Below are positions 9,573 through 10,513 of a stretch of 64,000 nucleotides of DNA, in pieces; positions within the stretch are counted from its first letter, which is position 1, and every line of letters starts with the position of its first letter. The stretch lies in contig JAISJR010000018.1 of NCBI GenBank assembly GCA_031261425.1, positions 1 to 64,000 on the forward strand. Reading direction: 5' to 3'. The DNA is from Planctomycetota bacterium. GTDB lineage: Bacteria; Planctomycetota; SZUA-567. A program made the position numbers and the translations under genes. The notes under the pieces were generated by a model that was given only the letters and a program-made list of their open reading frames with translations, did no database searches and was not told where the DNA came from.

Positions 9573-9761
9573 CTATAAAACCGGAAGTAAAACAATAAGC
9601 GCCGAAATGCCTATGTAAGCGCACAGTTTAACAGTGCCTACCCATTTTTCTCTTTTTCGTTTTTTTGCTAATTCCTCCGGTAGTGGAATGCATTTATCCG
9701 AATATTCGCCACCATTTTTTTCTTTTTCGTTTTTCTCCTCTTTTAATCCACCACTTGCCAA
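9573..9761 (-). CDS. Small membrane protein, TTG start or downstream half of a frameshifted gene (62 aa)
   Basis: A highly charged head (Lys/Glu-rich) is followed by a C-terminal hydrophobic helix (LCAYIGISALIVLLPVL). The only in-frame start is TTG. It overlaps the 47-residue ORF at an A-rich stretch. A +1 shift in the A7 run near 9720 would fuse the two into one protein of about 88 residues, so either a true frameshift, a sequencing error or two overlapping genes is possible. Confidence 0.35.
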   Translation of the reverse strand: MASGGLKEEKNEKEKNGGEYSDKCIPLPEELAKKRKREKWVGTVKLCAYIGISALIVLLPVL

Positions 9762-9837
9762 CGGCTACTACCCCGTTAAATATATCAAATTTGTGTTTCC
9801 ATATAGTAGCACCGATAGTCGCCCATGGAATCCCCAT
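9694..9837 (-). CDS. Small basic aromatic protein (47 aa)
   Basis: ATG at 9837 with AAGGGAG nine bases upstream, ending in TAA at 9694. The sequence is rich in Trp, Lys and Arg (starts MGIPWATIGATIWKHKFDIF, ends KKWWRIFG). No family recognised. A further GTG-started 23-residue ORF with a good AAGGAG site lies just upstream (9898-9969). Base use is AT-rich compared with core genes around it. Confidence 0.4.
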   Translation of the reverse strand: MGIPWATIGATIWKHKFDIFNGVVAVGKWWIKRGEKRKRKKWWRIFG

Positions 9838-9919
9838 CTTTCTATTCTCCCTTGTTTAGAAAAACATTACAAAAAAAAACGAATAAATAGCCGATTCTTA
9901 AATATGGTTAATCAACACC

Positions 9920-9945
9920 AAGCAATCGGCCCGCACCGATTGCTT
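9920..9945. repeat. 10-bp perfect hairpin
   Basis: AAGCAATCGG, a six-base loop, CCGATTGCTT. No T-run follows on either strand, so it is not a normal terminator; it sits between the terminator at 10008-10040 and the tiny ORFs. Confidence 0.5.
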
Positions 9946-10007
9946 TCCCCAACGACAAATCGCTGTCACCTACTCCTTTCCTCGCCGCGTATTGGCGATT
10001 TTGCCAC

Positions 10008-10040
10008 AAAAAAAGCCCGAATCCACACGGATTCGGGCTT
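10008..10040 (-). terminator. Strong intrinsic terminator
   Basis: A perfect 12-bp stem (10013-10024 with 10029-10040, loop ACAC) is followed on the minus strand by seven T. Confidence 0.9.
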
Positions 10041-10306
10041 ATCCAAATTTCTTTGATGCGAAAATGGCATAAAAAAGGGGACGCCATTTATCGCATCCCA
10101 CACAAGGTCTGCCACGACCCATATCCACGACGCAACCAATAGCGCCCAACGGCGCGTGGTTCGTGAATATGGGAAGTTTGAAAACGTGGCAGTTTTGTGT
10201 GGTTCCCATTTGTGACGCCGATTCCGCAAATACCGGAACCGGCGTGTATGTCTGTAAATTTAATCCTGCAACGAATAAAATAAAAAAATAATCCGACCGA
10301 AAACGG
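10008..10306 (-). ncRNA. Candidate structured non-coding RNA or leader RNA
   Basis: Minus-strand transcript of about 300 nt between a promoter-like motif and a strong terminator. It would fold into a 31-nt hairpin (10215-10245, 11 bp plus one G-U) and then a 105-nt, almost fully paired hairpin (10098-10202). Paired blocks of the long hairpin are CCACACAA/TTGTGTGG, CTGCCACG/CGTGGCAG, CCCATAT/ATATGGG, CACGA/TCGTG, ACCA/TGGT and GCGCC/GGCGC, with one 11-nt bulge. Reading frames crossing it (a TTG-started 98-codon frame and an ATG-started 73-codon frame) compete and show no domain. It does not match tmRNA, RNase P or SRP RNA landmarks; a 6S-like RNA is conceivable but unproven. It may also act as leader to the tiny ORFs downstream. 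Confidence 0.5.
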
Positions 10307-10312
10307 CATGAA

Positions 10313-10340
10313 ACGGTAAAATGAATTTTTGTCAAGTCAA
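10313..10340 (-). promoter_or_regulatory. Promoter-like motif for the structured RNA
   Basis: TTGACT, 16 bp, TACCGT on the minus strand; a second TTGACA overlaps five bases further on. The -35 box is good, the -10 box is poor. Confidence 0.4.
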
Positions 10341-10513
10341 GAGGATTCTTTTCACCGGTTTAATTTTAGCACTCCCTTTTCGTATTTTTTGCGCTAAATT
10401 TGATTTGTTCAATACTTGCTGAATTTGGCGGCGCTCTATTCAATAATTTTAAGGGTTTTAAGAAACGCAAGAACGCAACTTTCAACTCTCAACTCTCCCG
10501 AAAGGACGCGCCG

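Follow-up and report, generated by a model that had tools for sequence, protein, structure and literature searches.

What kind of element occupies positions 10008-10340 on the minus strand of the window, the whole 64,000-nt stretch of planctomycete DNA analyzed here, and is it a self-contained transcript or the leader of a gene? A preliminary description of the locus had proposed a new structured RNA furnished with a promoter motif and a terminator of its own. Folding of the minus strand between 10000 and 10345 gave an energy of −138.3 kcal/mol, compared with −92.9 ± 5.3 kcal/mol for 100 dinucleotide shuffles, none of which folded equally well (0/100; z = −8.7). It also recovered the two hairpins named in that description, one of 11 bp at 10214-10246 and one of 105 nt with an 11-nt bulge at 10098-10202 (feature coordinates refer to the minus strand throughout), and the 12-bp terminator, with its run of seven T, was likewise located at 10008-10040; terminator-like sites numbered five, compared with 0.9 expected from shuffles. 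The multicopy nature of the unit and two extra pseudoknotted partners of the long hairpin (10203-10208 and 10079-10088) had gone unnoticed.

The overlapping reading frames had been considered poor, and protein-level conservation, the sign named in advance as speaking against an RNA, was absent over 15 same-genus copies: every frame contains 19-26 stops, no frame is open throughout, and the copies differ in length by numbers not divisible by three. A protein-coding reading was rejected on these grounds; Pfam returned no hit for the three overlapping ORFs. In agreement with the remark that no common RNA landmark was recognizable, the comparison of the whole window with Rfam 15 gave nothing above the gathering threshold; the only matches from a permissive scan of 9900-10500 were to sRNAs, below threshold and resting mostly on the 12-bp terminator (T2), and the scan of 21 loci from relatives found only tRNAs and two weak matches off the element. 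6S RNA, singled out earlier as a candidate, was rejected, as neither the strict nor the permissive scan matched the 6S covariance models.

A blastn search against 60 related genomes detected matching pieces at several other sites in the same genome and in one congener. The first covariance model (R1) gave eight hits in the window's own genome and ten in the congener, with weaker ones elsewhere in their taxonomic family, in other genera, and two further rounds (R2 and R3) added members from further families and classes. Two loci that were not used in building the next model improved markedly in E-value, from 0.025 to 1.2e-8 (G006:C60) and from 0.029 to 1.3e-6 (G007:C73). The R3 model, built on stems A and B only (see below), had hits in 30 of 294 genomes sampled across the phylum, of which 29 were credible and represented 11 families, the other (L093) being set aside as likely false; a class-level search added a twelfth family. 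The search models contain columns for the U-tract, which biases these counts towards hits that possess one. L061, L073 and L093 were judged false, being short or devoid of the second pseudoknot described below, and viral carriage was rejected, as one pattern hit (L095) lies inside a phage coding sequence and is not recovered by the model. Judged from these searches, the RNA is a widespread family in planctomycete bacteria and not a lone sRNA. Some individual loci deserve mention. A single gene for a surface protein is preceded by two identical RNA cores in tandem, spaced 303 bp (G001:C39; L042:1282-1419 and 1585-1722), and the copy ahead of a BspA-like leucine-rich repeat protein (L014; G000:C81:6837-6916) is partial, keeping part of the P3 hairpin and T2 and having lost stems A-C. 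A near relative whose nfeD is 93% identical has wholly different DNA 5′ of that gene, with the RNA absent (L051:4700-6010), and the RNA is thus not linked to nfeD.

The covariance models permitted the search for compensatory stem changes that had been suggested at the outset, and such changes were found across the phylum. The long hairpin consists of three stems. Stem A pairs CCACACAA (10195-10202) with TTGTGTGG (10098-10105), and stem B pairs CTGCCACG (10185-10192) with CGTGGCAG (10109-10116); across 61 distinct copies these stems are 96% and 95% paired, respectively, with double changes in 8/8 pairs of each. Over both stems (16 pairs) pairing reaches 95.4%, double-change cells number 373, compared with 99 after shuffling, and the covariation score is 1.01, compared with 0.22, while controls with the register slid were only 34-42% paired. 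Between the two stems lies an internal loop in which AA is opposed to NCC, a near-invariant arrangement represented in the window by the AA at 10193-10194 (AA in 37 of 47 divergent copies) and by ACC at 10106-10108. Stem C (10161-10173 with 10118-10130) was defined by folding and covariation and carries a conserved GGG at the end of its 3′ strand, just before stem B. Apart from these few invariant bases (AA/NCC, GGG), the stems are very variable. Preceding the long hairpin is P1, the 11-bp hairpin, with AGACATA just before it, as found by folding and by upstream comparison by eye; AGACAUA or AGACAAA followed by a hairpin was seen, also by eye, at the same position in most copies of the taxonomic family.

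Two additional helices were first suspected by inspecting divergent copies. In the first (PK1), strand X, 5′ of stem A (UGGGAA, 10203-10208), pairs with strand X′ at the junction of the bulge and stem C (UUCCCA, 10170-10175), the CCCA being common to X′ and the 5′ strand of stem C; in G009 the corresponding pair is CUGUGUA/UACACAG. It follows that the apparent bulge of the long hairpin is a pseudoknot strand. In the second (PK2), the apical strand Y (GGGCGCUAUU, 10138-10147) pairs with Y′ (AAUGGCGUCC, 10079-10088), the strand just before the U-tract, as do GGGGUGUUGUC with GGCAGCGCCCC in G002 and GGGAGCGUCG with UGGCGCUCCC in G019; this helix is GC-rich and mostly comprises 8-13 continuous pairs. 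When the duplex energies of native partners were compared with those of partners swapped between copies, none of 20000 permutations was on average as good as the native pairing for PK1, and for PK2 the native energy was −19.6 kcal/mol, compared with −13.9 kcal/mol across copies (0/50000 permutations; 47 divergent copies). Both signals were reproduced on 24 loci that had not been used in spotting either helix; these loci came from a model with neither PK1 nor PK2 as pairs, and both helices are absent from the structure of every model used. Since PK1 and PK2 both cross stems A and B, they constitute pseudoknots, and by the pattern of compensatory change the RNA is an interlocked double pseudoknot. 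From this covariation follows a secondary-structure model concrete enough for experimental testing.

The position of Y′ bears on what the fold might do. In the window, a U-tract (10071-10076) begins two bases past Y′, and among 47 divergent copies TTTT directly follows Y′ in 31, compared with a background of 1.1% at nearby positions. T1 (10078-10099), a terminator-like hairpin whose 3′ arm is Y′ itself, is good in the same genus only and showed no covariation across the phylum (4468/20000 permutations), and was therefore rejected as a conserved switch. P3 (10055-10097), recognized by folding, uses Y′, holds the U-tract in its loop and is exclusive with both T1 and PK2, and its covariation is weak (125/20000 permutations). 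T2 (10008-10040) ends in U7 and is typical of same-genus copies, in most of which it follows the RNA structure as a strong terminator. The lack of covariation in T1 and its weakness in P3 favor the fold itself as the terminator, and the abutment of a GC-rich helix on a U-tract points the same way, so that PK2 and the U-tract most likely make up a riboswitch-like terminator built into the fold. The U-tract is absent from a few copies (L079, L080, L086 and L088), and termination is thus not universal; these copies would need another output, for example at the level of translation.

Gene context bears on whether the element acts on its own or in cis. The next co-directional gene, furnished with a ribosome-binding site, usually begins 25-240 nt from the RNA. 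In 48 of 60 copies the longest downstream ORF is on the same strand, with ten on the opposite strand and two too short; among the ten are response-regulator genes from G002 and G006, and there a gene with a good ribosome-binding site runs in the direction of the RNA too. Upstream ORFs, in contrast, are randomly oriented (25 same, 32 opposite), and this difference between the two sides argues for a cis-acting leader. With start codons chosen by a simple score of ORF length and Shine-Dalgarno match, the distance from the U-tract to the start is mostly 24-90 nt outside the window's genus; within it, up to about 240 nt separate the two, with T2 intervening. The gap falls to about 18 nt after the U-tract of T2 in L019 and to 24-26 nt after the U-tract in L063 and L066, distances too short to hold a separate promoter. 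In the window, the nearest downstream ATG ORF of at least 40 codons with a ribosome-binding site encodes 47 aa (9696-9839), and a second small ORF (9573-9761), 62 codons long and in a different frame, ends in what looks like a membrane segment. The two overlap in A-rich sequence (9573-9839) and may represent a single small membrane protein split by a frameshift; the ORF downstream of the RNA in the window is very small and may be decayed. A second GC-rich inverted repeat, AAGCAATCGG..CCGATTGCTT, with a weak T-rich tail, is found at 9919-9945, soon after the RNA unit.

These distances bear directly on the original proposal, of which the new structured RNA is upheld by compensatory change and by the absence of an Rfam match, whereas the stand-alone unit has become less likely, as copies abut co-directional genes. 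A trans-acting small RNA, transcribed from its own promoter to its own terminator and standing before genes by chance, could draw on the strong T2 that follows the structure in most same-genus copies and on the roughly 170 nt that separate the window unit from its next credible ORF; it accounts poorly for the consistent orientation of the downstream genes, for the 18-26 nt gaps and for the many divergent copies per genome, each ahead of a different gene, and we consider it unlikely. The position of the other copies directly 5′ of co-directional genes is best read as that of a 5′ leader with conditional terminators.

The proposed promoter stood up only in part. The hexamers TTGACT-N16-TACCGT are present at 10313-10340, but they did not pass a sigma-70 consensus scan, which found no promoter where 1.2 were expected, and the promoter is accordingly treated as putative and weak by consensus. 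The block surrounding it (10276-10401) recurs 5′ of other RNA copies (L017 and L018) and also 5′ of two genes that lack the RNA (L015 and L023). Further 5′ lies a 34-bp dyad, TTTAGCGC-N16-GAGTGCTAAA (10365-10398), near-identical at six sites (the window; G000 C3, C44 and C85; G001 C6, twice), with four exact copies in the own genome and two in the congener and none for a reversed control pattern. Some copies of the dyad stand 5′ of promoter-like blocks, whether or not the RNA is present. It is possibly an operator for a shared regulator; its half-sites are similar to those of CIRCE, but its longer spacing speaks against a CIRCE/HrcA reading. In many copies (L035, L055, L063 and L037 among them), an AGGAG-like purine box followed by a TATCGA-like sequence, without a start codon, was observed about 60-100 nt 5′ of the RNA.

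Multicopy palindromes of this kind may also matter as DNA, in the manner of MITE-like mobile repeats or attC-like recombination hairpins. The proximity of several copies to contig ends, the tandem pair in G001 and the absence of the element 5′ of nfeD in the near relative would agree with such a nature. Compensatory change in crossing helices, the U-tract and the gene-directed orientation all favor an RNA instead, plasmids gave no match at the DNA level, and no common ends or target duplications were noticed, so that we regard this origin as very improbable.

Taken together, we assign a probability of about 0.6 to the reading that the window RNA belongs to a new class of cis-acting leader RNAs found across the phylum, with a fold that doubles as a signal-controlled terminator. 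Such an RNA probably decides if the gene behind it gets made. The promoter-proximal hairpin P1 is followed by the long hairpin with stems A, B and C and the AA/NCC loop, locked by PK1 and PK2. With Y′ ending at, or a few bases from, the U-tract, we infer that the completed fold would bring about intrinsic termination, and a signal that stabilizes or undoes it would govern whether RNA polymerase reaches the gene behind. Where the U-tract is missing, the fold would control access of the ribosome instead, and T2 would add a second checkpoint in the window's genus. The long-range pseudoknot would then be an unusual expression platform.

As to the signal, the downstream genes, named by eye from their sequences and not from family scans, encode lipoproteins and other signal-peptide proteins, autotransporter-like and ankyrin surface proteins, response regulators (three times each in G002 and G006), three HTH regulators, MCP-like receptors (G000 and G011), glycosyltransferase-like proteins and one sigma-factor-like protein. 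Such a mixture suggests a general signal, for example a second messenger or an RNA-binding protein, and not the metabolite of one pathway. Under the former, the family would be a new riboswitch class, widespread in planctomycetes, whose double-pseudoknot aptamer would serve as the intrinsic terminator and sense a general signaling molecule controlling surface, signaling and regulatory genes. The conserved complex fold in a 5′ leader looked for in a riboswitch is found here as a covarying double pseudoknot placed before genes, and the distribution over many families, with as many as ten copies in one genome, ahead of unrelated genes, resembles that of second-messenger riboswitches; we put this identity forward tentatively, as one possibility.

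Structured RNAs with a regulatory role are known in only small number from planctomycetes. Riboswitches for c-di-GMP are scattered before very different genes, often for surface, chemotaxis and signaling functions, and the present RNA is likewise scattered before diverse surface and signaling genes; GGDEF proteins are encoded in the taxonomic family of the window genome. It differs from these riboswitches in its architecture and in having no Rfam hit. In processive antitermination of the LoaP/RfaH or put type, surface genes are preceded by a structured leader and then by terminators, a layout that the present RNA shares. In the same taxonomic family, NusG-domain matches amounted to one in each of 13 of 16 genomes and none in three incomplete ones, and no specialized NusG paralog was found among the 16, so that RfaH/LoaP antitermination was rejected: with at most one NusG-domain protein per genome, such a paralog is not the partner. 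The same count weighs against control of the leader by a dedicated protein that binds RNA, be it an autoregulator or a global regulator, in place of a small molecule; no candidate for such a protein was found. Variable stems with few invariant bases would suit recognition by shape, and the diversity of downstream genes would fit as well; we view such a protein as somewhat doubtful.

The leader of the class proposed here shares the concept of a terminator-embedded aptamer with the HMP-PP (thiS) riboswitch, whose ligand-binding fold is described as part of the intrinsic terminator itself (PMC6478431), and departs from it in having no Rfam match, no thiamin genes downstream and a putative terminator helix that is a long-range pseudoknot. 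The one lead from the literature is the Rhodopirellula-1 motif, a 2010 candidate from Planctomycetes and Proteobacteria listed as ambiguous as an RNA (Weinberg et al. 2010, PMC2864571, Table 1), where it is rated probably cis-regulatory, with riboswitch status unknown and no Rfam accession. The two share the phylum and a probable cis-regulatory assignment, as compared by table entry. The present RNA matches no Rfam 15 family and would be new unless it equals Rhodopirellula-1. Were the two identical, what is contributed here would be the double-pseudoknot fold, the occurrence across the phylum and a proposed mechanism; otherwise, a new class is described.
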